From a virus, in IMG/VR virus record IMGVR_UViG_3300047548_000560, positions 1-23,294 of that record: a stretch of DNA of 23,294 bases; one strand, given 5' to 3'. The first letter of the stretch is position 1; every line of letters starts with the position of its first letter. A program made the position numbers and the translations under genes. Positions 1,610 to 22,310 of this stretch are shown here, one piece after another. A model generated the notes under the pieces. The model saw only the letters and a program-made list of their open reading frames with translations, was not told the DNA's origin and ran no database searches.

Positions 1610-2158
1610 ATGAATATTTTTTATCTATCGACTGATCCAGCACAAGCTGCCGGATGGATGGTGGATAAGCACGTAGTCAAGATGATTCTTGAAAGCGCGC
1701 AACTACTATCTACCGCGCACCGAATCATTGACGGTGTCGAAGTAGCCGGTAAATCTAAGACCGGTCGAAATGTTAAGCGTTGGGTATTGAATGACGCTCG
1801 AGATTCAGTCATCTACACAGCGACACATGTCAATCATCCGAGCGCAGTGTGGTGTCGTCAATCTGTTGAGAATTACAATTGGCTCGTGGATCACTTTCAT
1901 GCGCTCGGTAAAGAATATACTTATCGCTACGGTAAGACACATAAGTGCTTTGAGGGTGATTTAGCTTATATGCTATCTTCTCCACCAAACAACCTTCGTA
2001 AGTACGAATGGACCGAGATGCCATCAGCCATGGCTGATGAGTATAAGATTAGTAATGACCCATTGACAAACTACCGACACTATTATAAAGTGGCAAAAGC
2101 ACGTATGCATGCCTGGAAAAACAGGCAGCCACCAGAATGGATCTTTTCAGGAGTATAG
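1610..2158 (+). CDS. Conserved phage protein, MNIFYL..DKHVVKM type
   Basis: A 182-residue protein whose N-terminus, MNIFYLSTDP followed by DKHVVKMILESAQLLSTAH, is a pattern I associate with a conserved family of T4-like and cyanophage proteins of unproven function. The helical N-terminal half carries conserved-looking His residues (DKHVVKM, TAHR, HVNHPSAVW), which could be an active or metal site. The C-terminus is rich in Trp and Tyr. It starts one base after the small membrane gene and sits just upstream of the MazG-like gene, so it belongs to the same operon. I give no function. Confidence 0.75.
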   Translation: MNIFYLSTDPAQAAGWMVDKHVVKMILESAQLLSTAHRIIDGVEVAGKSKTGRNVKRWVLNDARDSVIYTATHVNHPSAVWCRQSVENYNWLVDHFHALGKEYTYRYGKTHKCFEGDLAYMLSSPPNNLRKYEWTEMPSAMADEYKISNDPLTNYRHYYKVAKARMHAWKNRQPPEWIFSGV

Positions 2159-2159
2159 T

Positions 2160-2558
2160 ATGAGTACAAATTGGTCAAAAGACATTAACGAGATGCATGA
2201 ACACTACGGTGTTCCACGGGTTGTCAAAACTATGAGTCCAGAGAAACTCAAGCAGTTCCTAGAGTTTAGGATCAACTTCATTCGCGAAGAACTAAATGAA
2301 CTAGCGACTGCTGAGACGGCAGAAGACGTAGTAGACGCCCTAATTGATCTATGTGTGGTAGCTATCGGTACACTAGATTCTTTTGAAGTAGACGCTAATG
2401 AAGCATGGGACGAAGTATTAGTAGCTAACATGAATAAGAAGACTGGCGTAAATGCTTCACGCCCGAATCCCATGGGATTACCAGACCTTATCAAGCCAGA
2501 GGGATGGAAAGCACCGTCACACGAGGGTAACCACGGGCTTCTATCTAAGGTGTTCTGA
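2160..2558 (+). CDS. MazG-like nucleoside triphosphate pyrophosphohydrolase
   Basis: A 132-residue protein. The start at 2160 is chosen because AGGAG lies about 6 bases upstream and the ATG follows the previous stop by one base; an upstream in-frame ATG at 2109 would run deep into the preceding gene. The central helices carry the all-alpha NTP pyrophosphatase signature: REELNELA, then ETAEDVVDALIDL, matching the EExxE and ExxD metal-binding pattern. Members hydrolyse (d)NTPs to monophosphates. Four genes downstream is a dCMP hydroxymethylase; phages that replace cytosine must remove dCTP, as T4 gp56 does. This gene could be the functional substitute for gp56, but that is inference. It overlaps the next gene by one base (TGATG). 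Confidence 0.78.
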   Translation: MSTNWSKDINEMHEHYGVPRVVKTMSPEKLKQFLEFRINFIREELNELATAETAEDVVDALIDLCVVAIGTLDSFEVDANEAWDEVLVANMNKKTGVNASRPNPMGLPDLIKPEGWKAPSHEGNHGLLSKVF

Positions 2559-3004
2559 TGTTTATGAATAACTGGCGTGCTGCTCTCGGCAAGTCCGGCG
2601 AGGATCTAGTACGTAGAGTCTTACAGAGTAAACATGACTTAGTAGAAGAAACTGTTTGGTATGACTCTCAGAAAGACGGCGTCGTTGACTTAAAGCAGTA
2701 TGAAGTCAAGACACTCATGGAGAACTACGCTCATCGTGCTTTCATACTTGGTTCTTCACAGTGGGCTAAGTGTGAGAACGTAGATAGACTGTTCTTCGTT
2801 CGTATTCCAGAAGTAGAAGCACCCATTCGTATCTATGAATGCCCAAAGAGTTACAGACGACCAACACATGTGTTCATGAACGGCGACAACTGTCGTGTCT
2901 TTAGGTTGACGAAACTCAACTTGTATGATACTATACACGATGAGAAGCTGGGTGAGTACTGGCGTTCTCTAACTAAAACAAAGTACATGAGGAACAAGTC
3001 ATGA
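2558..3004 (+). CDS. PD-(D/E)XK-type nuclease
   Basis: A 148-residue basic protein with the core of the PD-(D/E)XK nuclease fold: Glu15 in a leading helix (GKSGEDLVRRVL), then Asp44 and Glu49-x-Lys51 on adjacent strands (DGVVDL, YEVKT). This is the arrangement in VRR_NUC/Mrr-like and restriction-type nucleases. It starts on the stop of the MazG-like gene and overlaps the next gene by four bases. In a phage likely to carry modified cytosine, a nuclease that spares its own DNA and degrades unmodified host DNA would fit, in the way T4 endonucleases II and IV work. The fold call is motif-based; the substrate is unknown. Confidence 0.72.
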   Translation: MFMNNWRAALGKSGEDLVRRVLQSKHDLVEETVWYDSQKDGVVDLKQYEVKTLMENYAHRAFILGSSQWAKCENVDRLFFVRIPEVEAPIRIYECPKSYRRPTHVFMNGDNCRVFRLTKLNLYDTIHDEKLGEYWRSLTKTKYMRNKS

Positions 3005-3336
3005 ATGAAGATAGAGAATCAGTCAAAGTTCTCAGAGAATGTATCGAGCTTCAGAACAAGAAGTCTCAGGACTATCAAAACCCTAACTCAAATGTAACTC
3101 AAGCAATGCATTATCGTCGTGGTGTAGATACTATCCATGACACCCTACAAGGAAAGCTATACCGAGCCCAGTCTCTTTTAGAATCCGGTACTTACAATCA
3201 AGCTAACTTTGAGTCACTTGAAGATACATATAAAGACTTAATTAATTATGCTTCTTTTGCAGTAGCTTGGCTACGTGGTGGCGTACCGGGCCAAGATACA
3301 ACTAGAGACATTTTCAACCGAAAGGTCTCTGAGTGA
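3001..3336 (+). CDS. Nucleotide-modification-associated domain protein (DUF1599/Nmad1-like)
   Basis: A 111-residue helical protein. KKSQDYQNP near 20-28, then DTIHDTLQGKLYRAQSLL and ESLEDTYKDLINYASFAVAWL, resembles the small phage family annotated as DUF1599 or nucleotide modification associated domain 1. That family was named for its frequent position beside base-modification enzymes, which is where this gene sits: directly before the dCMP hydroxymethylase, overlapping it by four bases (GTGA). Its biochemical role is not established. Family assignment is from memory of the pattern, so moderate. Confidence 0.65.
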   Translation: MNEDRESVKVLRECIELQNKKSQDYQNPNSNVTQAMHYRRGVDTIHDTLQGKLYRAQSLLESGTYNQANFESLEDTYKDLINYASFAVAWLRGGVPGQDTTRDIFNRKVSE

Positions 3337-3989
3337 TAGTCCGTAATAACGTAAACACTATTCGCGAGGAGTTTAAGTGGCTCCTCGCGAATGAATTTTA
3401 TGAAGAAGATAAATCTGGTGTTAAGCTACTAGAGATAGTAAATGCTTCTTTCGTGGCAGACGAACCTTCTATCTTTGGTAAACCTAATCATTCTTACATT
3501 GAGCGTGAGATTGAGTGGTACAAATCAATGTCCCTCAATGTCAACGATATCCCGGGCGAGACACCAGCTGTCTGGAAACAAGTTGCTACACCGGATGGAC
3601 GCATTAACTCTAACTACGGGTGGTGTATCTGGTCACGAGAAAACGGTGAGCAATACAACAACGTCTTACGTGAACTCAGACAGAAGCCTACTTCTAGACG
3701 AGCCACTATGATCTATACACGACCAAGTATGTGGGTAGACTATAGTCGCGACGGTATGTCTGATTTTATGTGTACAAACGCGGTACAATATGTTATAAGA
3801 GATCAAGCATTACACGCTATCGTTCAGATGCGTAGTAACGATGTTTTCTATGGTTACAGGAATGACTTCGCTTGGAATGAATACGTACTAAAGATACTAG
3901 CGTCAGACTTAGACGTCTCTCCGGGTCTTATTCACTGGAACGTCGGGTCCCTTCACGTCTATGAACGAAACTTTAACCTGGTGAAATGA
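3333..3989 (+). CDS. gp42: Deoxycytidylate 5-hydroxymethylase (T4 gp42-like)
   Basis: A 218-residue protein that follows T4 gp42 closely: IVNASFVADEPSIFG, DIPGETPAVWKQVA, INSNYGWCIWS, SRRATMIYTRPSMWVDY, DGMSDFMCTNAVQYVIRD and HWNVGSLHVYERNF all have direct T4 counterparts. gp42 belongs to the thymidylate synthase family and uses methylene-tetrahydrofolate to make 5-hydroxymethyl-dCMP. The nucleophile is Cys147. Asp178 stands where thymidylate synthases have Asn, the residue that gives cytosine rather than uracil preference in T4. The C-terminus is about 28 residues shorter than T4 gp42. The start is GTG (3333-3335), overlapping the preceding stop. The protein predicts hydroxymethylcytosine-containing phage DNA. 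Confidence 0.93.
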   Translation: MIVRNNVNTIREEFKWLLANEFYEEDKSGVKLLEIVNASFVADEPSIFGKPNHSYIEREIEWYKSMSLNVNDIPGETPAVWKQVATPDGRINSNYGWCIWSRENGEQYNNVLRELRQKPTSRRATMIYTRPSMWVDYSRDGMSDFMCTNAVQYVIRDQALHAIVQMRSNDVFYGYRNDFAWNEYVLKILASDLDVSPGLIHWNVGSLHVYERNFNLVK

Positions 3990-4429
3990 TGAGCGACAAG
4001 TGGCACGATAATTTCTTGAAGATGGCTGAGCATATTTCCGGTTGGTCTAAAGATCCTTCTACAAAGATCGGAGCAGTGGCAGTCGGTGATCGTCGACAGA
4101 TACTAGCCACCGGTTACAATGGTTTCCCACGTGGGATCAAAGACTATCGAGACAGGCTAGAGACTCGTGAGACCAAGTATAAGTTCATGGTTCATGGTGA
4201 GATGAATTGTATTTATAACGCGACTCTCAACGGTGTCAGTCTCAACGGTGCTGACTTATACGTTCACGGTCTGCCCGTTTGTTCTGAGTGTGCGAAGGGT
4301 ATCATCCAAGTCGGTATTAAGCGTGTATTCATGCGTTACCCCGATGAAGTCTCTCAGAAGTGGCTAGGCATGGGCCTAGAGACTAAGGAGATGTTCGCAG
4401 AAGCTGGTGTAGAGTTAAATAAACTATGA
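3986..4429 (+). CDS. cd: dCMP deaminase
   Basis: A 147-residue zinc-dependent deaminase. His70 and Glu72 (VHGEMN) with Cys99 and Cys102 (PVCSEC) form the zinc site and proton shuttle; SKDPSTKIGAVAVG and ATGYNGFPRG are the substrate-side motifs of dCMP deaminases. It converts dCMP to dUMP, balancing pyrimidine pools for dTTP synthesis, and so competes with the hydroxymethylase next door for dCMP. It overlaps the hydroxymethylase by four bases (ATGA) and the next gene by four, so translation is probably coupled. Two ATGs in tandem are available for the start. Confidence 0.93.
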   Translation: MMSDKWHDNFLKMAEHISGWSKDPSTKIGAVAVGDRRQILATGYNGFPRGIKDYRDRLETRETKYKFMVHGEMNCIYNATLNGVSLNGADLYVHGLPVCSECAKGIIQVGIKRVFMRYPDEVSQKWLGMGLETKEMFAEAGVELNKL

Positions 4430-5634
4430 AAAAAGTTATAGTAATAGATAGTTTAACAGAAACTTTTAATGGGCCAATCGTCAGGAGCGGCTTACAGAAG
4501 AGCGCTAAGCTAGACGCTCGTGCTTTTGCTAAAATGGGTTATGATACAACATTTTTATATTGTGGTGTTATTGATGATCATTACCCATACGAAAAGATCT
4601 GTCTGAACGACATCGGTGCTAAAGAAGACGTAGCTCGCCATGGAAAGCATATGCGTGCTTCTGGTAACTACGTCAAGTCTTACTTGAACAGATCTAGTAA
4701 TACGCTGTTAGAAGCTGACTACATTGTGGCTCATTGTCACTCAGTGGGTATGATGACTGGCATCAACGCGATGGTAAAAGATAAGAAGATACTCTTCATC
4801 ATTCATGATGTGATAGATCTTACTTGGGCGTGTGGTTTTACCAATGCTGTAAATAACATGCGAGCGACAGGAAGAAACTACACGCACATAGCTACTAACT
4901 CTCAGTATAGTATCGCGAGACTAGATTATATCTACTCTAGAGCTAAAGATAGGTTTGAATTATTGAGTGGTAATGAAGCTTTTGATAGTTTCATACGTCA
5001 CTTTGTCTGGTCTGACGTGAATCCCACTAGAGAAGAAATTATTCAGCATGAAAAAAAGTCTGCCGTCATAGGCAGGTATGAACCAGCTAAATATCATCAC
5101 AAGTTGTATAAGTACAAAAACCCAGAAAACATCATAGTTCATTACGGGATCAAGGATCCTCGTCGTGACGAGGGTCTGAAGTATTACGAGAACTTAAAGA
5201 TTAAAGCAAATGCTTACTCCGAGAACCTGTCTGATGAAGATCTGTGGGAGTCTATAAAGACTAGTCAGTCCATTATACTACCATGTTATCACGAAGGGTT
5301 TGGATTCACAGCTTTTGAAGCTGGTATATTTGGTGTAGCCCCAGTCATACTAGTTCATGACCAAGGGTTACACAAGGGTCAGCACGCTCACGCGACTGTT
5401 CAATACTTGACTAGGGCTGGGACTAAACACTTTACCGCCGACTTCAACGATGAAGATTCGATCATTCGAGCGATCGATGATTCTTTACAAATCACGGAAC
5501 AAGATAGGATCGACATCTCTAGTAGCCTATTATCGTACTTCACTGTTGAGAATTATGTTAACGAGAGGATAGAGTTACTTGAGTCTGCTAAAAAAATTAA
5601 CATTGAATCTAGCTTAGAGAGTTTTTTTGAATGA
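4426..5634 (+). CDS. GT-B glycosyltransferase (GT4-like), candidate DNA hydroxymethylcytosine glycosyltransferase
   Basis: A 402-residue two-domain protein. The N-terminal half alternates strands and helices (KKVIVIDSL, DYIVAHCHSVG, KILFIIHDV), as in a GT-B fold. The C-terminal half has strands VIGRYEP and IIVHYGI, then CYHEGFGFTAFEAG, where Glu290 and Glu298 make the E-x7-E motif that contacts the nucleotide sugar in GT4 enzymes. No signal peptide is present, so it is cytoplasmic. Overlap with dCMP deaminase upstream and the methyltransferase homologue downstream, in a run that starts with dCMP hydroxymethylase, suggests that it glycosylates hydroxymethylcytosine in DNA, as T4 AGT/BGT do. 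I see no close resemblance to either T4 enzyme; the DNA role is inference. Confidence 0.8.
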   Translation: MKKVIVIDSLTETFNGPIVRSGLQKSAKLDARAFAKMGYDTTFLYCGVIDDHYPYEKICLNDIGAKEDVARHGKHMRASGNYVKSYLNRSSNTLLEADYIVAHCHSVGMMTGINAMVKDKKILFIIHDVIDLTWACGFTNAVNNMRATGRNYTHIATNSQYSIARLDYIYSRAKDRFELLSGNEAFDSFIRHFVWSDVNPTREEIIQHEKKSAVIGRYEPAKYHHKLYKYKNPENIIVHYGIKDPRRDEGLKYYENLKIKANAYSENLSDEDLWESIKTSQSIILPCYHEGFGFTAFEAGIFGVAPVILVHDQGLHKGQHAHATVQYLTRAGTKHFTADFNDEDSIIRAIDDSLQITEQDRIDISSSLLSYFTVENYVNERIELLESAKKINIESSLESFFE

Positions 5635-6827
5635 AACACGCTACCATAGTACCACTCATCGGTGGTATGACACTTGGTGCTGAAAAGTCTTTCGGTGAAA
5701 GACCATCATATCTGATGTCATACAAGCCGTTTTATTTTAATGATCGTCACCTACTCAATCATTACGATAACGAAGTTCCTTACCATGTGCTAGATGACGG
5801 CCAGAAACCAAATAACAAAGTAGAAGTAGTATCCTCTGTTTGTCCATGCGCAGGGCTATCACAGCTCTCACACGGCTTCGGTGATCATAACGAGAACAAC
5901 AAGTGGATGGTCACCACTACTAAGTATGTGTTAGAAGACCTGAAGCCCAGCGTCCTGTACGGTGAAAACGCACCAGGATTCGCCGGTAAGATCGGTCAGA
6001 CTGTTCGTGAACAACTACGCGCTATTGCGTCCGACGCTGGTTACACCATGAGCGTCTATCGAACCAAGTCACTGTTTCACGGCGTCCCACAGATCCGGGA
6101 ACGTTCTTTTTACTTTTTCTGGCGTGGTGACAAGACACCCGTGTTTAACTATTACCGTCGTGATAGGTTAAGTATTGAAGACACCATTCGCTCAGCTTTT
6201 GGCAACACCCAGCGTGAAGTTATTAATAAGAAGACACCGAGTAAAGACGATCCGTACTATCGTTACATACTAGAAGTCATTCATAAGGGTGTGACTCACA
6301 AAGAGTTCTGTTCTATGATTGAACCAATGAAAGCGCGTGGTAATGATGTTCTGTCTTACATCGAGCTAATGGGACATAGCTACACAACTGTTGGTGAATG
6401 GATGCACAAAAACGGGTATGACAAAGAAGTGCAGAAGTGTGAGTACCGAGTAAAGAAAGTAGCCGAGGGTGGAAACTTGATGCGCCGCGGCACTGTCATA
6501 CCAAAAGATTACATCGGTGCTTTCGTCGGTCATTATCCCATGATGTTGACACACCCAGACGAAGACCGTTATATCAATTATCGCGAAGCCATGACTATTA
6601 TGGGTATGCCACAGAATTTTGAGCTCCTGGATCAAAACAAGACTACTAATCATATTTGTCAGAACGTGCCCGTACAGACAGCTGCCGACATGGCCACTGA
6701 AGTGATGGCTTCTCTAAACGGAGAGAGGGAGTGGATTGACTCTTCATACGTCTTTCAATACAGTCATACTCAGAAGCACGAAGTAGCAGACACACGCACA
6801 AAGACTCTAGTTGACTTTTTGAATTAA
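5631..6827 (+). CDS. C5-cytosine DNA methyltransferase homologue in a hydroxymethylation cassette
   Basis: A 398-residue protein with the ordered motifs of C5-cytosine methyltransferases. Motif I-like PLIGGMTLGAEKSFG near the N-terminus; motif IV CPCAGLS with nucleophile Cys73 after Pro72; motif VI GENAPG with Glu112-Asn113; motif VIII GVPQIRER (154-158, QxRxR); and a C-terminal block INYREAMTIMGMPQNF then QNVPVQTAADMA resembling motifs IX-X, with QN in place of the usual GN. The segment between VIII and IX is the place of the target-recognition domain. The catalytic residues are intact. It overlaps the glycosyltransferase by four bases. If cytosine is already replaced by hydroxymethylcytosine, ordinary C5 methylation is blocked, so its substrate is a puzzle. 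Confidence 0.85.
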   Translation: MKHATIVPLIGGMTLGAEKSFGERPSYLMSYKPFYFNDRHLLNHYDNEVPYHVLDDGQKPNNKVEVVSSVCPCAGLSQLSHGFGDHNENNKWMVTTTKYVLEDLKPSVLYGENAPGFAGKIGQTVREQLRAIASDAGYTMSVYRTKSLFHGVPQIRERSFYFFWRGDKTPVFNYYRRDRLSIEDTIRSAFGNTQREVINKKTPSKDDPYYRYILEVIHKGVTHKEFCSMIEPMKARGNDVLSYIELMGHSYTTVGEWMHKNGYDKEVQKCEYRVKKVAEGGNLMRRGTVIPKDYIGAFVGHYPMMLTHPDEDRYINYREAMTIMGMPQNFELLDQNKTTNHICQNVPVQTAADMATEVMASLNGEREWIDSSYVFQYSHTQKHEVADTRTKTLVDFLN

Positions 6828-6834
6828 GGTGATG

Positions 6835-7131
6835 ATGATTGACATGAGTAATAAAATAGTGTATAAATATAATGAGGATCAGATTATTGCTGACTTTAAA
6901 GCCTATATTGATAGGACATATGGTGAGCATTACAAGGCTGAAGACCTAGAGACATTTGATGTCTGGGAAGCCATGGGCACTGCTTCTACTACTTGCAGAG
7001 ACACAGCTATCAAGTATCTCATGCGTTACGGCAAAAAGAACGGTAAGAATAAAGATGACTTGATGAAGACTCTTCATTACGTTCTTCTTTGTCTTCATAT
7101 TGAACATTACAAGAACAAGGTAAATACATAA
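6835..7131 (+). CDS. DUF3310-like small protein
   Basis: A helical protein of about 98 residues. TYGEHYK, then DVWEAMG, then AIKYLMRYGKKNGKNKDDLMKTLHYVLL matches the pattern of phage DUF3310 (SaV-like) proteins, sometimes loosely annotated as nucleotide kinases without proof. Possible starts are GTG 6829, ATG 6832, 6835 and 6844; I prefer 6835 because AAGG at 6826-6829 is then five bases away. It ends with TAATG, sharing a base with the next start. Its function is unknown; it lies at the end of the modification run. Confidence 0.65.
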   Translation: MIDMSNKIVYKYNEDQIIADFKAYIDRTYGEHYKAEDLETFDVWEAMGTASTTCRDTAIKYLMRYGKKNGKNKDDLMKTLHYVLLCLHIEHYKNKVNT

Positions 7132-7976
7132 TGGAAATTAAAATTGAAATGGATGTACTAAGGAAGCGTAAGCTCTTCCTTGCAGCCCCAATGTATGGCG
7201 GGATGTGTGCAGGTATGTTTGCCAAGTCAACTGCCGATCTAACAGCAATGTTTGCAGCAAATGGTCTAGAACTTCGATCATATTTTCTTTTTAACGAGTC
7301 TCTCATTACTCGTGCTAGAAACTATTGCGTTGATGAGTTTATGCGATCTGATTGCACTCATATGATGTTTATCGATTCAGACATTGGGTTTGATCCACGA
7401 GACATCGTCGCCATGATGGCACTCATGTCAGATGACTCTGAGTATGATGTACTAGCAGGACCATATCCAAAGAAGACTATTTCTTGGGAAAAGATTAAAC
7501 TAGCAGTCGATAAGGGTATTGCAGACGACGACGCTAACGTGCTTGAAAAGTACGTTGGGGATTATGTCTTTAATCCTAAAGCTGGTAACGGAACTATTCG
7601 TATCGATGAACCAGTTGAGGTGTCTGAAGTTGGTACTGGTTTCATGATGACACGACGTTCTGCTTTCGAAAAGTTTGCGGTCGCTTACCCAGAATATTCT
7701 TATAAGCCAGACCATGTTCGAACAGAACATTTTGATGGTTCACGCGAGATCATGCAATACTTCCAGGCTGAGATTGACCCAGTATCTAAGCGGTATCTCT
7801 CGGAAGACTATTGGTTCTGTCAAAAGCTAAGTCAAGCCGGTGGAAAGATTTGGTATTGCCCTTGGATGCGTCTGCAGCATGTTGGTACCTATATCTTTGG
7901 TGGATCACTAGCGGATCTAGCATCAATCGGTGCCCCTGCTACTGCAGACCCAGCGATGTTAAAGAAGAATAAGTAA
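7131..7976 (+). CDS. GT-A glycosyltransferase (GT2-like)
   Basis: A 281-residue protein of the phage GT-A glycosyltransferase type: a first strand KLFLAAPMYGG, an LITRARNYCVDEF helix, the metal- and sugar-nucleotide-binding DxD at Asp82-Asp84 (FIDSDIGFDP), the acceptor-side VGTGFMMTRR, and SEDYWFCQKLSQAGGKIW, where Glu-Asp supplies the usual catalytic base. It starts on the stop of the preceding gene (TAATG). It is the second glycosyltransferase within 3 kb of the dCMP hydroxymethylase. It might extend or replace the sugar on modified bases, or act on a phage structural protein or host glycan; the sequence does not decide. Confidence 0.82.
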   Translation: MEIKIEMDVLRKRKLFLAAPMYGGMCAGMFAKSTADLTAMFAANGLELRSYFLFNESLITRARNYCVDEFMRSDCTHMMFIDSDIGFDPRDIVAMMALMSDDSEYDVLAGPYPKKTISWEKIKLAVDKGIADDDANVLEKYVGDYVFNPKAGNGTIRIDEPVEVSEVGTGFMMTRRSAFEKFAVAYPEYSYKPDHVRTEHFDGSREIMQYFQAEIDPVSKRYLSEDYWFCQKLSQAGGKIWYCPWMRLQHVGTYIFGGSLADLASIGAPATADPAMLKKNK

Positions 7977-11883: not shown

Positions 11884-12339
11884 ATGACTAAGCAGTACGA
11901 AATCTCTATCGGTTGTGACCACGCCGGGCTTGAACTAGCTAGACAGCTATCAGCTTGGCTCTTTGACGTGGGTCACACTATCTATACTTTCTTTCCAGAA
12001 GAAAAGTCTAAAGTGGACTATCCCGATTACGCTTACAAGACGTGTTCATCCGTGACACTGAGTTCACATACGGTGTCTCGTGGTATCTTGGTCTGCGGGT
12101 CCGGCGTGGGTATGTCTATCGCTGCGAATCGATTCAAGGGCATCCGGTGTGTACTGGCTTCTGATCCTTATGTAGCTGAGATGTCTCGTCGACACAATGA
12201 CACTAATGTCATCGCTCTCGGTGCTAGAGTCATCGGTTCAGACATGGCGGTAGCTTGTATAGAATCGTTCTTAAACACTTCTTACGAGGGTGGTCGCCAC
12301 GAGCAACGAGTGATGAAACTATTTAACATGAAAGATTGA
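11884..12339 (+). CDS. rpiB: Ribose-5-phosphate isomerase B
   Basis: A 151-residue protein of the RpiB/LacAB family, near full length. Seen: GCDHAG near the N-terminus (catalytic-site Asp-His), YPDYA, ILVCGSGVGMSIAANR with the active-site Cys, SRRHNDTNVIALGARVIG with the phosphate/ring-opening His, and YEGGRHEQRV. All key residues of E. coli RpiB are present, apart from a conservative Thr-to-Ser in CGTG. It interconverts ribose-5-phosphate and ribulose-5-phosphate, supplying ribose for nucleotide synthesis. In a phage this is an auxiliary metabolic gene, plausibly boosting dNTP supply. It overlaps pstS by one base. Confidence 0.93.
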   Translation: MTKQYEISIGCDHAGLELARQLSAWLFDVGHTIYTFFPEEKSKVDYPDYAYKTCSSVTLSSHTVSRGILVCGSGVGMSIAANRFKGIRCVLASDPYVAEMSRRHNDTNVIALGARVIGSDMAVACIESFLNTSYEGGRHEQRVMKLFNMKD

Positions 12340-13310
12340 TGATGAAATTTGTATACGGACTACTAGCAGCTACTATCTTTACTTCTGTGTCTCAAGCACA
12401 GACCATCACCGGGGCGGGTGCTACTTTTCCAGCACCAGTCTATAGCAAGTGGGCAGAAGCGTCTAAGAAAGATGGGTTCTCTGTAAACTACCAATCGGTG
12501 GGATCTGGTGCTGGACAGACACAGATCATCAATCGAACCGTTGACTTTGGTGCTTCTGACGCTCCACTCGATAAGAACAGGCTAGATACTAACAAGCTGA
12601 TTCAGGTGCCATCAGTTATGGGGTCTATCACCATCGTAGTAAACATCCCGGGTGTAACTAGTGATAAGCTAAATCTCTCTGGTCCTGTCATCGTAGACAT
12701 CTTTAGGGGCGTTATTAATAGGTGGAATCATCCTGCTATCGCGGCCGATAACCCTGGCTTGACTCTCCCAAACATCGCCATCAGTCCCATCTATCGCGCC
12801 GATGGTTCTGGTACGACGCATGTCTTTACTAGTTGGTTAGCTACACAGAGTCAAGAGTGGAAAGATGTTGGCACTTCAGTAAAATGGTCTGCCGGTATGG
12901 GTGCTAGGGGTAACGAGGGAATCTCGGCTTTTGTTAAGCGAGTTAATGGTTCCATTGGCTATGTGGAAAGTGCTTATGTAAAAGCAAATGGTCTAACATC
13001 AACTAATCTTAAAACATCTACAGGCAAGTGGGTATCGGCAAATCCTAATAATTTTGCTGCAGCTGCAGCAAAAACCGAATGGACTGAAAATAACGAATCA
13101 CTTGGACTAAACACCAGTTGTGATACGTGTTATCCGATCTTATCAGCCACTTACGTCCTCATCCCTAGGGACGGAAAGAATAAGAACAATGTAGAAAAGT
13201 GGCTAAAGTGGGCATATGATAACGGAGACGAGATTGCGTCTTCTTTACATTACGTTCCTCTTCCTCGAGGAGTCAAAGATCGAGTGATCAAGACACTCAA
13301 TACTGATTGA
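12339..13310 (+). CDS. pstS: PstS-like periplasmic phosphate-binding protein
   Basis: About 323 residues. Start at ATG 12339 (TGATG overlap with rpiB); ATG 12342 and TTG 12336 are alternatives. A signal peptide (MMKFVYGLLAATIFTSVSQAQ, cleavage near AQA) is followed by ITGAGATFPAPVYSKW, YQSVGSGAGQTQI, DFGASDAPL, YRADGSGTTHVFTSWL and MGARGNEGISAFV, the ordered phosphate-contact motifs of PstS. It would work in the host periplasm with the host PstCAB importer; no permease is encoded nearby. Marine phages often carry pstS, where it is thought to relieve phosphate limitation during DNA synthesis. The last codon's stop is part of the next promoter's -35. Confidence 0.93.
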   Translation: MMKFVYGLLAATIFTSVSQAQTITGAGATFPAPVYSKWAEASKKDGFSVNYQSVGSGAGQTQIINRTVDFGASDAPLDKNRLDTNKLIQVPSVMGSITIVVNIPGVTSDKLNLSGPVIVDIFRGVINRWNHPAIAADNPGLTLPNIAISPIYRADGSGTTHVFTSWLATQSQEWKDVGTSVKWSAGMGARGNEGISAFVKRVNGSIGYVESAYVKANGLTSTNLKTSTGKWVSANPNNFAAAAAKTEWTENNESLGLNTSCDTCYPILSATYVLIPRDGKNKNNVEKWLKWAYDNGDEIASSLHYVPLPRGVKDRVIKTLNTD

Positions 13311-13348: not shown

Positions 13349-13425
13349 GCGCCTATAGCTTAGCGGTCTAAAGCTGCCAGCTCATAACTGGCCGATCCCC
13401 TGTTCAAATCAGGGTGGGCGCACCA
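13349..13425 (+). tRNA. tRNA with CAT anticodon (Met, or Ile2 if lysidine-modified)
   Basis: A full cloverleaf: acceptor GCGCCTA with TGGGCGC, anticodon stem GCCAG/CTGGC with loop CTCATAA, T stem CCCTG/CAGGG with loop TTCAAAT, and an encoded CCA end. The first pair is G1-C72, so it is not a typical bacterial initiator tRNA. Elongator Met and Ile2 cannot be told apart by eye. Confidence 0.93.
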
Positions 13426-13442
13426 ACCCTGGAGTTACTTCT

Positions 13443-13667
13443 ATGTTACTTAAAGACTTCATCCAAATGCTTCAATCTAAATACGATGAAGCTACTAGAG
13501 ATAAAGAATATCTTGATATGATGGGTGAACCCGAGATCTATGTTGACGTATTTGAACCACTCGATGAACACCGGTTTCAATACGTTGGTTACTCTAAGGA
13601 CATAGAAGTAGACTTGAATCCTTCTAATGGAGATTATATCATCTCTGCTTTTGCTAAGATTAAATAG
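13443..13667 (+). CDS. Small acidic protein between tRNA genes
   Basis: A 74-residue protein with TGGAG about eight bases before its ATG. Its stop codon (TAG, 13665-13667) directly abuts the first base of the tRNA-Leu at 13668. The sequence is acidic, with LQSKYDEATRDKEYLDMMGEPEIYVDVFEP and a likely C-terminal strand pair. No family recognised. The strong start signal and placement support a real gene. Confidence 0.7.
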   Translation: MLLKDFIQMLQSKYDEATRDKEYLDMMGEPEIYVDVFEPLDEHRFQYVGYSKDIEVDLNPSNGDYIISAFAKIK

Positions 13668-13753
13668 GGGAGCATGCTGGAACTGGCATACAGGACGGTC
13701 TCAAAAACCGTTGCCCACGTGGCTTGAGGGTTCAAATCCCTCTGCTCCTACCA
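13668..13753 (+). tRNA. tRNA-Leu (CAA)
   Basis: A class II tRNA of 86 bases including CCA. Acceptor GGGAGCA pairs with TGCTCCT (one G-U); anticodon stem ACGGT/ACCGT with loop CTCAAAA gives CAA; a long variable arm follows (GCCCACGTGGC); T stem GAGGG/CCCTC with loop TTCAAAT. Confidence 0.93.
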
Positions 13754-13755
13754 GA

Positions 13756-13840
13756 GCGGGCTTGACGTAATTGGTAGCCGTGACGTGCTTAAACCTCGTT
13801 GGAGAAATCCGTGCCGGTTCGAGTCCGGCAGCCCGTACCA
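13756..13840 (+). tRNA. tRNA-Leu (TAA)
   Basis: A class II tRNA of 85 bases, two bases after the previous one. Acceptor GCGGGCT pairs with AGCCCGT; loop CTTAAAC gives TAA; variable arm follows; T stem GCCGG/CCGGC with loop TTCGAGT; CCA encoded. The anticodon stem ACGTG/CTCGT has one T-T mismatch. Together with the CAA isoacceptor it covers both UUR leucine codons. Confidence 0.9.
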
Positions 13841-16080: not shown

Positions 16081-17346
16081 CTATGTCTCCATGTTTTCTC
16101 TGTCACAAACGAAAGCAGTGACTGCTACGTTTCCATAAACATGACTAGCGGTACGAATCATATCCATTATAGGATCTACAGCTATTAATAATACAATAAT
16201 AGCTTCATGTGGTAGTTGCAACAAGTCACACACTATACTCACTGTAGCCACCGTTAATACACCAGTAGTGCCAGCACTAGCTAAACCAGCTAGTATGGCA
16301 CCAAATAACACCATTGATAGAGCTATCCATGTTAAACTTATCCCATAGATGTTTGCTATGAATAATGTAGCTATGGCATAATAAGTTATAGATCCAATCC
16401 TATTAACTGTAAAGCTTAATGGAACCATTAATTCGACAGAACCTCTGTCGAACTTAAGCTTAGTCAATGCTTCTTGCGCATATGGTATGCACGCAAGACT
16501 ACTTCTAGATGATATAGCTACTATTACTGTGTCTTTTACTGATAAGAGTATAGAAAATATAGATGTTCCTCTGCATCTTAATGCAATGACAATAGTAGCT
16601 ATAATCAATATAGCTAAACCGCCAAGAGCTTGTTGAATTATAAATTCAAGCAAAGTTTCAAAAATAGATAAACCAACTTTACCAACTTGACTTGAAATCA
16701 TAGCTAATAAAGCAAATGGTAAAAAGTAATTTAAAAATTTAAATATGCTTATTGAAGCATTTTGTATAGCTTGCAGAGCACTGACTATAATAGTCATACC
16801 TTCATTTTTTAGTTGCCCGAGGGCAATGCCAAAGATTAAGCAGAATACAACTACCTTTAAACTCTCTCCAGTATTCAGACTCTGAAAGATATTTTCTGGT
16901 ATGAATTTAGTGTAGATAGAAGGACCATCATCTTTCTTTTCTTCTTTATCTTTATGTAATGCAATTTCTAAATCGACTGCTCCTTGGTCTCTGTCAGTGA
17001 CTAGAGATCCCATTTTTGCTTGTTTTTCTGGTGTCATATCTGATGAAGTCAACATCACTGTTCCAACACCAACGCTTGAAGCTAAAATCATAGATAATAT
17101 GAAACCAAATATGATCCGCTTAATCATTCCAGCGGCATCATCTTTTTGTAGTAAACTTATGATGCCAACAAGTATAGTGGCTAATAAGAATGGTAAGACT
17201 ACTACTTTTAATAGACTAAGGTAAATTAAACCGACATCTTCAAATTCTATGCTTTCAGCAGGAAAATAAAATCCAAATGCTACACCAGCTACTATAGCAC
17301 TTAATACAGTAAACGGATTAGTCAGAATTTTTTTTAACATATTCAT
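16081..17346 (-). CDS. SDF-family (dicarboxylate/amino acid:cation) symporter with altered cation sites
   Basis: A 421-residue multi-spanning inner-membrane protein. Start at 17346 because AAGGAA sits seven bases upstream; it lies four bases after the binding protein's stop. The SDF signature is clear: a Ser-rich ISSRSSLACIP hairpin, TVNRIGS where the family has NMDGT, the AGLASAGTTGV hairpin, and DPIMDMIRTASHVYGN. By GltPh numbering, D394, R397 and T398, which hold the substrate, are kept, while D312 is Ile, M311 Arg, N401 His and D405 Asn, removing sodium ligands. It should import an acidic amino acid or dicarboxylate with changed coupling. Such a transporter in a phage is unusual. Confidence 0.88.
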   Translation of the reverse strand: MNMLKKILTNPFTVLSAIVAGVAFGFYFPAESIEFEDVGLIYLSLLKVVVLPFLLATILVGIISLLQKDDAAGMIKRIIFGFILSMILASSVGVGTVMLTSSDMTPEKQAKMGSLVTDRDQGAVDLEIALHKDKEEKKDDGPSIYTKFIPENIFQSLNTGESLKVVVFCLIFGIALGQLKNEGMTIIVSALQAIQNASISIFKFLNYFLPFALLAMISSQVGKVGLSIFETLLEFIIQQALGGLAILIIATIVIALRCRGTSIFSILLSVKDTVIVAISSRSSLACIPYAQEALTKLKFDRGSVELMVPLSFTVNRIGSITYYAIATLFIANIYGISLTWIALSMVLFGAILAGLASAGTTGVLTVATVSIVCDLLQLPHEAIIVLLIAVDPIMDMIRTASHVYGNVAVTAFVCDRENMET

Positions 17347-17350
17347 CTGA

Positions 17351-18166
17351 CTATTCCTTGTTATTATCATAATATTTCTTTAACATAGAAAGAAGATTCT
17401 TAACTTCTATGTTATTATAGTCATTTTTTATAACATGATCTATTATAGTGAGTAAATGTGTGCTATTTGGAGGAACAGCTGCAGCTATATTATCTACAGA
17501 ATCGGTAAACACGACTGTTTTAGTATGAATGGATGCTGTTGGTTTTTCCATAGTTAAACGTTTTATTTCAAATTCATCTCTAAAACCAGCTGAGTATTTT
17601 CCCGATATAACACCATTAACTATGTTATCCCAACTAGTCTCTGGACTGTATATTGCTCTAGGAAAAGAAGTACGAGCAAACGTATCATAACTAGAATTAG
17701 CTATAAAAGATATTGATCCATTAAAAGTTTTTATAGTAGTTTCTTGATCACCATTCTTGGTGTTTTGGCTTAACCATAGACGATTAACTATCATTGCCTG
17801 ATGTAGTCTTACGTATGGTGTAGAAAACTTGACTACATTCATTCTTGGACCAGTTATTGACAATTTGCTAATAGCCATGTCAGCTTTGCCAGATACTATT
17901 TGATCTATAACACCTGCAAACGAAGTAGCGTCCCTGTTAAACACAACAGGGACGCCAAGAATCTTAGCTACTTTTTTAGCAATATCAACATCTAAGCCAG
18001 TCATATTATTGATAGTCCCGCCATAAAATGGTGGTGTATCAAAAGCAGTCATGGCTACTATAAGCTTATCTCTCTGTTTTATTTCTGCTATATCTGGTGG
18101 ATACACAGTTTGTGCATGCGCTTTAAAGCAGAATAAAAAGAGTATAAGAAACAAAAAAGCTTTCAT
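17351..18166 (-). CDS. Periplasmic amino-acid-binding protein (SBP family 3)
   Basis: A 271-residue family 3 solute-binding protein. A signal peptide (MKAFLFLILFLFCFKAHAQ) precedes two lobes: KLIVAMTAFDTPPFYGG, GLDVDIAKKVAKILGVPVVF, SGKADMAISKLSITGPRMNVVKFSTPYV with the ligand-carboxylate Arg108, and in lobe 2 SGKYSAGFRDEFEIKR with an Asp at the usual amino-group position. It should bind an amino acid in the host periplasm. No ABC permease is present; instead it is cotranscribed with an SDF symporter. Its start codon lies in the stem of the hairpin at 18152-18223, and its first codons (ATG AAA GCT TTT TTG) form that hairpin's T-run. Confidence 0.92.
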   Translation of the reverse strand: MKAFLFLILFLFCFKAHAQTVYPPDIAEIKQRDKLIVAMTAFDTPPFYGGTINNMTGLDVDIAKKVAKILGVPVVFNRDATSFAGVIDQIVSGKADMAISKLSITGPRMNVVKFSTPYVRLHQAMIVNRLWLSQNTKNGDQETTIKTFNGSISFIANSSYDTFARTSFPRAIYSPETSWDNIVNGVISGKYSAGFRDEFEIKRLTMEKPTASIHTKTVVFTDSVDNIAAAVPPNSTHLLTIIDHVIKNDYNNIEVKNLLSMLKKYYDNNKE

Positions 18167-20578: not shown

Positions 20579-20980
20579 ATGAGTCGAGACCACTCGTATT
20601 ACATGAACACCCTCGAGAAGCTAGCCATTGCTTCCGAGGGTGCGGCTAACGCTAAGTTGGCTGCGTGTATCGTTGCTAAGAACCAAGTAGTAAGTTTTGG
20701 TTTCAATAGACTCAAGTCACATCCATTTCAAAAGAAGTTTGGGCGTAATGCTGACTCTATTTTTCTTCACGCCGAGACTGACGCTATTCGTAATGCATTA
20801 AAGTGTGTAGACGTCGAAGACCTTAAGAAGTCCACGATGTACGTCTGTAGAGTCAAGAAGATCAATAAAAAGTTTTGTTGGGGTCTCGCCAAGCCGTGCG
20901 AGGGTTGTACCAGGGCCATAGCGACCTTCAACATACGAAACGTCATCTACACGGATGATGATGGATTGAAGTCACTATAA
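20579..20980 (+). CDS. Cytidine/deoxycytidylate deaminase-family protein
   Basis: A 133-residue zinc deaminase-fold protein: LAACIVAKNQVVSFGFNRLKS, then HAETDAI (His64, Glu66) and PCEGCTRAI (Cys107, Cys110). All zinc ligands and the catalytic Glu are kept. It is shorter than, and clearly different from, the dCMP deaminase at 3986-4429, so its substrate may be a different free nucleotide, nucleoside, or modified base. The KSHPFQKKFGRNADSIFLHAE loop is typical of a group of phage deaminase-like proteins of unclear substrate. Confidence 0.85.
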   Translation: MSRDHSYYMNTLEKLAIASEGAANAKLAACIVAKNQVVSFGFNRLKSHPFQKKFGRNADSIFLHAETDAIRNALKCVDVEDLKKSTMYVCRVKKINKKFCWGLAKPCEGCTRAIATFNIRNVIYTDDDGLKSL

Positions 20981-22235: not shown

Positions 22236-22310
22236 TCAGGATGGTTGGATTCGAACCAACAATTTCCAGTTCCCAAAACTGGCGGAATAGCCAGATTATC
22301 CTACACCCTG
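22236..22310 (-). tRNA. tRNA-Pro (TGG)
   Basis: Acceptor CAGGGTG pairs with CATCCTG, giving the C1-G72 start typical of bacterial tRNA-Pro; anticodon stem CCAGT/ACTGG with loop TTTGGGA gives TGG; T stem TTGGT-type with loop TTCGAAT. CCA is not encoded, unlike in the other four tRNAs. A T-run follows four bases downstream. Confidence 0.9.

Follow-up and report, generated by a model that had tools for sequence, protein, structure and literature searches.

A probable cytosine-hypermodification operon with an exchangeable sugar-transfer slot and a constant C5-methyltransferase homologue in a marine T4-like myovirus

In a 23-kb viral fragment (IMG/VR record IMGVR_UViG_3300047548_000560, 23,294 nucleotides, hereafter the window), a locus of a marine T4-like myovirus was found that is probably an operon for cytosine hypermodification, operating by the full pathway proposed below, and the cytosine of the viral DNA is very probably replaced by a sugar-bearing form. 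Five genes at 3001-6827, encoding a DUF1599 protein, a hydroxymethylase, a deaminase, a glycosyltransferase (GT402) and a C5-methyltransferase (C5-MTase) homologue, are chained by 4-bp overlaps (GTGA at 3333-3336; ATGA at 3986, 4426 and 5631), and the nuclease-like gene upstream shares a further ATGA overlap with the DUF1599 gene at 3001. The last four genes had been predicted to overlap by four bases each, and all of these open reading frames and overlaps proved exact. The same gene order was found in dozens of independent viral contigs, indicating that the arrangement is not due to chance. The features of the locus are as follows:

2109..2558, + strand: MazG-like nucleotide pyrophosphohydrolase (PF01503, E=1.7e-7; phrog_671, E=4e-22)
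2558..3004, + strand: PD-(D/E)XK nuclease-like protein, putative role (motif GVVDLKQYEVK only)
3001..3336, + strand: DUF1599 / nucleotide modification associated domain 1 protein (PF07659, E=4e-5; phrog_1485, E=2e-13)
3333..3989, + strand: predicted dCMP hydroxymethylase, T4 gp42 type (GTG start; Cys147, Asp178)
3986..4429, + strand: dCMP deaminase (PF00383, E=8e-18; phrog_174, E=4e-43; HGE at 70, CxxC at 99)
4426..5634, + strand: GT402, retaining-type GT4-like glycosyltransferase, 402 aa (PF00534, E=4e-7; slot position; motifs)
5631..6827, + strand: C5-MTase homologue (PF00145, E=6e-18; catalytic Cys73, Glu112, Arg156/Arg158; V7, L9, Y31, Q344)
7131..7976, + strand: GT-A-like protein, phrog_1574 (neighbour, judged to lie outside the cassette)

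Judged from its sequence, the 3333..3989 product is a dCMP hydroxymethylase of the T4 gp42 type, as the original prediction had it. It matched the solved T4 gp42 (PDB 1b49/1b5e) over residues 10-217 with E=5e-82 and shared 60-62% identity with annotated gp42 genes. Its Asp178 aligned to Asn177 of E. coli ThyA, with residue 147 as the catalytic Cys, and an Asp occupies this position in all 46 hydroxymethylase family sequences (46/46), in which Glu58, Cys146 and Arg166 are retained; ThyA genes from database records likewise have the Asn. The predicted dCMP deaminase was likewise confirmed, with its zinc motifs HGE at 70 and CSEC at 99 (PF00383, E=8e-18).

Upstream of these genes, the predicted MazG-like protein was recovered (PF01503, 2e-7), and a MazG-like gene is often found upstream of the hydroxymethylase in relatives. 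The other two upstream assignments stood in part. The DUF1599-like protein matched PF07659 (E=4e-5) but fell slightly below the Pfam cut-off (24.2 versus 25 bits), and its adjoining position to the hydroxymethylase is kept in relatives. The proposed PD-(D/E)XK nuclease carries a D-x(n)-ExK motif and has relatives (30-37%) similarly placed in some loci, but no family was matched among Pfam and PHROG. The description of the locus as a "complete system" went too far: searches of six hydroxymethylase-type records yielded no dNMP kinase of the PF21448 (DNMK) family, the counterpart that T4 gp1 would lead one to expect, a dCTP-removing role (dCTPase) of the MazG-like protein is only a guess, and the window is itself a fragment.

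Across phages, four lineages, Bacillus phage G and S-TIM5-type cyanophages among them, carry the C5-MTase homologue together with a thymidylate-synthase homologue of the dCMP (Asp177) type. A gp42-type enzyme was found on 26 of the 33 contigs bearing the C5-MTase homologue, and the remaining 7 stop just upstream of the position expected for it. The pairing also holds in Pseudoalteromonas phage XG4. S-TIM61 carries an Asp177-type ThyA near the C5-MTase homologue and a relative of the T4-type alpha-glucosyltransferase (AGT) elsewhere in its genome. In Bacillus phage G, gp301 is the C5-MTase homologue, a distant member whose motif I-II alignment is uncertain, and gp319 is the Asp177-type enzyme, gp317 a deaminase, and gp306 and gp313 are AGTs. 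In contrast, the Klebsiella T4-like phage phiKp_19 encodes a canonical SAM-type C5-MTase and only an Asn177 ThyA.

The prediction of a C5-methyltransferase homologue was supported by PF00145 (6e-18), and its catalytic motifs are present, namely the Cys (PC), the ENx Glu and the QxRxR Arg. The catalytic Cys, Glu and Arg are unchanged in all 30 aligned members; S-TIM61 and XG4 retain them too. At the SAM-contact positions, however, the family is substituted throughout: relative to M.HhaI, F18 is V/I, G20 is L, E40 is Y and N304 is Q in all listed members of the window's subfamily, whereas in seven canonical MTase controls G20 and N304 are retained and position 40 is acidic. The M.HhaI reference sequence matches the PDB alignment in its catalytic region and database phage C5-MTases in its SAM motifs. 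Thus the features of a SAM-dependent C5-MTase (motif I FxGxGG, an acidic motif II and the motif X Asn) are lacking, although motif I retains its GG. Alignment to Pfam, NCBIfam and PDB profiles begins only at about residue 55-64, that is, at motif IV. The predicted fold is still that of a C5-MTase (pLDDT 91; best Foldseek matches M.HaeIII and M.HhaI); in it, a helical segment separates motifs VIII and IX. The cofactor pocket is conserved though altered, and could bind SAM differently or accommodate another cofactor.

From these sequence features and its genomic partner, we infer that the C5-MTase homologue may be a SAM-independent enzyme acting on hydroxymethylcytosine. A more specific proposal, which we put forward tentatively but regard as a serious possibility, is that it is a natural SAM-independent enzyme on 5-hydroxymethylcytosine (5hmC) already in DNA, whose covalent Cys mechanism would, at chosen sites, take off the hydroxymethyl group or exchange the hydroxyl for another group. 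To our knowledge, such removal or exchange by C5-MTases is known so far solely as an in vitro side reaction. M.MpeI releases formaldehyde from 5hmC, which thereby loses its hydroxymethyl group (PMC11347137), and C5-MTases can couple 5hmC with thiols and cytosine with formaldehyde (PMC7176277).

It is less likely that the homologue is still SAM-dependent with a diverged pocket, targeting residual unmodified cytosine or serving anti-restriction in an otherwise T4-like cassette. The high-confidence fold prediction with canonical enzymes as best Foldseek matches, the retained motif I GG and a conserved pocket, which implies that something is bound, would fit this reading, but the substitutions at F18, G20, E40 and N304, of which seven canonical controls keep the G20, acid 40 and N304 positions, and the failure of domain profiles to recognise the protein before motif IV argue against it; moreover, strict pairing with 5hmC synthesis would leave little unmodified C5 for methylation. 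A role for the protein as a non-catalytic helper that binds DNA or flips bases, offering 5hmC to the glycosyltransferase, is improbable: the loss of SAM-site residues and a helical segment that could read sequence would suit such a role, but a pure scaffold would not need the invariant Cys, Glu and Arg.

A C5-MTase fold re-used for hypermodification is also seen in CmoX, a DNA cytosine C5-carboxymethyltransferase of marine phages, which retains the ribose-binding Glu47 and the adenine-binding Asp69/Phe25 and employs Arg350 for Cx-SAM (PMC12783734). The homologue differs from CmoX in having Tyr for the Glu, Val/Ile for the Phe and Gln at the Arg350 position, and in being partnered by a hydroxymethylase. 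It was rejected as a CmoX on the basis of the Gln, rather than Arg, at the HhaI Asn304 position and the Tyr in place of the SAM-site Glu. With M.HhaI and M.HaeIII it shares the fold, the catalytic Cys and the ENx and QxRxR motifs, and is set apart from them by the SAM-contact substitutions described above.

In about 60 IMG/VR relatives, the hydroxymethylase is usually followed by the deaminase, then by a variable slot and then by the C5-MTase homologue. The commonest slot gene is a T4-type AGT (PF11440), a relative of which was found at 24 loci; two of these scored E=3e-75 and 2e-79 against PF11440, and the set matched T4 AGT structures at 3e-122 and annotated AGTs at 42% identity. Further slot contents are the TET-associated glycosyltransferase TAGT (PF20691), a 365-aa protein (phrog_14998) and the nucleotide-sugar genes UDP-galactopyranose mutase, epimerase, UDP-glucose dehydrogenase and cytidylyltransferase. 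The 365-aa protein seemed by eye a plausible BGT relative, but a PDB-sequence profile search gave no BGT, and this assignment was dropped. The C5-MTase homologue is the constant partner and the slot glycosyltransferase the variable one; the original prediction had missed both this constancy and the retention of catalytic but not SAM-binding residues. The window's homologue clusters with those of two loci, L007 and L008 (support 100/99), which both carry an AGT in the slot, and GT402 lies in exactly this position between the deaminase and the C5-MTase homologue.

GT402 was predicted to be a GT4-like enzyme unlike T4 AGT, and by sequence this is correct: it matches the Glycos_transf_1 domain (PF00534, E=4e-7) of the broad GT4 family only, with EX7E at 290-298 and IGRxEPxK (GRxxPxK type) at 215-222, and gave no PF11440 match in the Pfam search. 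It was also rejected as a diverged AGT, the hhalign comparison with the AGT set being not significant. No relatives were found among 50,697 phage records, and two IMG/VR scans returned one identical contig and one partial relative (48%, L005). The earlier statement of a "new type of DNA glycosyltransferase" is too strong as fact, as the AlphaFold model, built on a two-sequence alignment, has a pLDDT of 40 and the DNA role is deduced from genomic position. Nevertheless, the true T4-type AGT at the same position in relatives makes a much stronger case for a DNA substrate than was available before, and we propose GT402 as a putative DNA 5hmC glycosyltransferase. There is little likelihood that GT402 is a surface (LPS/O-antigen) or protein glycosyltransferase, in the operon by happenstance. 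Pathways for surface polysaccharides often contain GT4 enzymes, the similarity of GT402 reaches only that broad family, and pelagimyophage glycosyltransferases have been interpreted as host-surface enzymes (PMC7029224). Against this, GT402 overlaps the deaminase and C5-MTase homologue genes by four bases each and exactly replaces the genuine DNA alpha-glucosyltransferase of its closest relatives, and many of the other slot genes belong to the DNA-glycosylation or nucleotide-sugar types.

The GT-A gene at 7131-7976 was rejected as a cassette member. It is an older gp45 neighbour: the phrog_1574 gene lies upstream of gp45 in Cr30, phiM12, DLP6, OC and RHph_I1_18, and no match to a gp42-type hydroxymethylase was obtained in the records of these phages.

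T4 is not known to encode a C5-MTase homologue, and no T4 record was among the phage-record matches to it. With the T4 gp42-AGT/BGT pathway, the cassette shares a hydroxymethylase with a cytosine-selecting Asp, a dCMP deaminase and, as proposed, post-replicative sugar transfer, and the window's relatives share a true AGT. It differs in that its genes are packed into a single tight operon, always with the C5-MTase homologue, and that the glycosyltransferase slot is exchangeable; the window's own glycosyltransferase is a GT4 enzyme outside PF11440. The RB69 arabinosyl-hmC and Thanatos pentose-C pathways, which yield non-glucose decoration, also comprise a hydroxymethylase, a diverged glycosyltransferase and sugar-nucleotide genes (PMC6024577, PMC12838424); their glycosyltransferases are different, and neither pathway is known to include a C5-MTase homologue. 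Neither phage appeared among the phage-record matches to the homologue.

In the pathway that we propose, the gp42-type enzyme would make 5-hydroxymethyl-dCMP, while the deaminase, perhaps with the MazG-like protein, would deplete ordinary dCMP/dCTP, so that replication would insert 5hmC into the phage DNA. GT402 would then transfer a sugar onto 5hmC already in DNA, filling an exchangeable slot that in relatives is occupied by T4-type AGT or other sugar-transfer or nucleotide-sugar enzymes. The C5-MTase homologue would probably flip the base out and engage it covalently via Cys73, as C5-MTases do, and, without the usual use of SAM, most likely act at some of the sites by removing, exchanging or derivatising the hydroxymethyl group.

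With this locus, 5hmC glycosylation in the manner of T4 would reach uncultivated marine T4-like phages, in the form of a modular cassette whose sugar slot is swappable, which is useful for predicting phage DNA modifications and the evasion of restriction and CRISPR. The larger find is the conserved C5-MTase homologue, with its rebuilt cofactor site and its link to 5hmC in four lineages of phages; it may perform chemistry new to nature and could supply a new enzyme for 5hmC reading or editing. Isolates that carry it exist (Bacillus phage G, S-TIM61 and XG4), making the question directly testable. If its SAM-independent 5hmC chemistry is true, phages would have a second, conserved branch of cytosine hypermodification beside the exchangeable sugar branch.

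The window, a 23,294-base IMG/VR fragment, is from a T4-like myovirus: homologues of gp46, gp45, gp44/62 and RegA flank the cassette, and the core gene order is common to close relatives. Four cassette genes with 4-bp overlaps, as described in the original prediction, were confirmed at the window ORFs, and the overlapping run continues upstream past the DUF1599 gene to reach a nuclease-like gene. The hydroxymethylase matched T4 gp42 structures (E=5e-82), shared 60-62% identity with annotated gp42 genes and carries Asp178 in place of the Asn by which thymidylate synthase selects dUMP, making it, by sequence, an unmistakable gp42-type enzyme. The deaminase contains zinc motifs. The glycosyltransferase GT402 is a GT4-type protein (PF00534, 4e-7) with both GRxxPxK and EX7E motifs; a domain scan found no signature of the T4-type alpha-glucosyltransferase (AGT), and a test for AGT homology found none. 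The fourth protein matched PF00145 (6e-18) and is a C5-methyltransferase (C5-MTase) homologue. The parent kind of this cassette is the T4 pathway.

Elsewhere in the window, genes at 11884-13310 and 16081-18166 were called by reading translations, as was a second deaminase-like protein (20579-20980). RpiB-like and PstS-like genes adjoin the replication genes, and the minus strand carries dicarboxylate-symporter-like and solute-binding-protein-like genes; these four kinds of gene may be host-derived metabolic genes. The tRNA genes are:
13349-13840 and 22236-22310, tRNA-Met, tRNA-Leu (two genes) and, on the minus strand, tRNA-Pro

The AlphaFold model of the C5-MTase homologue was good (pLDDT 91), with M.HaeIII and M.HhaI as best Foldseek matches and Bacillus phage G gp301 as best viral match, so that the predicted fold is that of a C5-MTase. 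Cys73, Glu112, Gln154, Arg156 and Arg158 are unchanged throughout 30 homologue sequences. In C5-MTases the N-terminal half holds SAM, and it is this half that departs from them: FxGxGG is replaced by PLIGG, the motif X Asn by Gln, and the acidic SAM-ribose-binding residue by Tyr. Gly20, acidic residue 40 and Asn304 (M.HhaI numbering) were retained in 7/7 canonical enzymes co-aligned as controls, and Pfam, NCBIfam and PDB profile matches to the homologue start only near residue 55-64. Since the replaced residues are conserved in turn (Pro8, Leu9, Ile10, Gly11 and Gly12 invariant among the 30 homologues, Tyr31 in 29/30), the cofactor pocket is rebuilt, not decayed.

A gp42-type gene was present in 26/33 contigs carrying this C5-MTase homologue subfamily; the other 7 contigs end within ~6 kb upstream of the homologue, before the place of the gp42-type gene in close relatives. 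Three isolates with distant homologues fit the linkage. A gp42-type gene is present in Pseudoalteromonas phage XG4. In cyanophage S-TIM61 an Asp177 thymidylate-synthase homologue lies 2.4 kb away from its C5-MTase homologue, and an AGT relative is encoded at another place in the genome. Bacillus phage G encodes, within 15 kb:
gp301, C5-MTase homologue
gp319, Asp177-type thymidylate-synthase homologue
gp317, deaminase
gp306 and gp313, AGT relatives
gp309, sugar-nucleotide enzyme
The other thymidylate synthase of phage G retains Asn. Its two diverged AGT homologues are noted in an earlier study (PMC6024577), and a literature search found no report connecting them with gp301. In contrast, the C5-MTase of the Klebsiella T4-like phage phiKp_19 is canonical and its ThyA is of the normal Asn177 type, with no second thymidylate-synthase family match in its record, in agreement with a Tevenvirinae survey (PMC8056088).

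Scanning with the C5-MTase homologue retrieved 64 IMG/VR loci, onto which the window genes were mapped to read gene order. The kept order is hydroxymethylase, usually deaminase, a variable stretch (the slot, ~1.1-5.5 kb), C5-MTase homologue, followed by gp45 and gp44. The C5-MTase homologue is a more constant cassette member than any glycosyltransferase. Slot ORFs were clustered and representatives scanned for families:
AGT-like genes, 24 loci (representatives match PF11440, down to 2e-79)
phrog_14998, a 365-aa family of unknown function, 17 loci
NAD-dependent epimerase, 9 loci
UDP-galactopyranose mutase, 8 loci
TET-associated glycosyltransferase PF20691, 6 loci
cytidylyltransferase, 6 loci
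UDP-glucose dehydrogenase, 4 loci
A profile of the slot AGT set matched T4 AGT structures at 3e-122. On the C5-MTase homologue tree, slot content changed at least 11 times (least possible 6), and AGT alone at least 4 times when only well-supported branches were counted. The window's homologue clusters with those of L007 and L008 (support 100/99), each with AGT in its slot, indicating that GT402 occupies the place of its nearest kin's DNA alpha-glucosyltransferase. A DNA acceptor for GT402 is supported mainly by this position.

The phrog_14998 family (L041:883-1974 plus 16 more loci), which has further members in some Aeromonas, Erwinia and Gordonia phages, is a candidate new DNA glycosyltransferase family. 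The slot of the L047 lineage (L047:1645-5998; also L048, L056 and L067) contains phrog_7093, an enzyme resembling threonine dehydratase, together with phrog_13881 and unassigned proteins; a recognised glycosyltransferase is missing, which suggests modification of 5-hydroxymethylcytosine (5hmC) by a non-sugar group. Between deaminase and glycosyltransferase, 16 relatives' cassettes, but not the window's, encode a small protein (~120-134 aa) with the uracil-DNA-glycosylase-superfamily motifs GxNP and PHPSxxNR and a weak PF03167 match (E=0.0045), a putative base-excision enzyme within a 5hmC cassette:
L008:1691-2068, L009:4371-4772, L013:4363-4752, L024:2659-3021 and ~12 other loci, small protein with these motifs

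A further gene was considered as a cassette member:
7131-7976, GT-A-like protein of unknown function (phrog_1574), upstream of gp45
It was rejected, as counterparts lie upstream of gp45 in Cr30, phiM12, DLP6, OC and RHph_I1_18, and searching these five records gave no gp42-type match (the weak match in phiM12 is an Asn177 thymidylate synthase). The gene is therefore probably older than the cassette at this locus. Conservation of phrog_1574 upstream of gp45 is seen in T4-superfamily phages of alphaproteobacteria and in the Stenotrophomonas phage DLP6.

A non-exhaustive literature search found no prior report of the cassette, nor of any C5-MTase homologue linked to a hydroxymethylase. Non-glucose sugars in phage DNA are exemplified by RB69 and Thanatos (PMC6024577, PMC12838424). 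CmoX is a C5-MTase fold redirected into hypermodification (PMC12783734); unlike it, the window's homologue lacks the CmoX SAM site and Arg350. From gene content, residues, synteny and co-occurrence, all read directly, we infer that the viral DNA contains 5hmC, which GT402 would glycosylate and on which the C5-MTase homologue would act without SAM. Its route may be removal, exchange or a different cofactor. Precedent for the proposed SAM-independent chemistry on 5hmC comes from M.MpeI, which takes the hydroxymethyl group off as formaldehyde (PMC11347137), and from C5-MTases, which can both add formaldehyde to cytosine and join thiols to 5hmC (PMC7176277).
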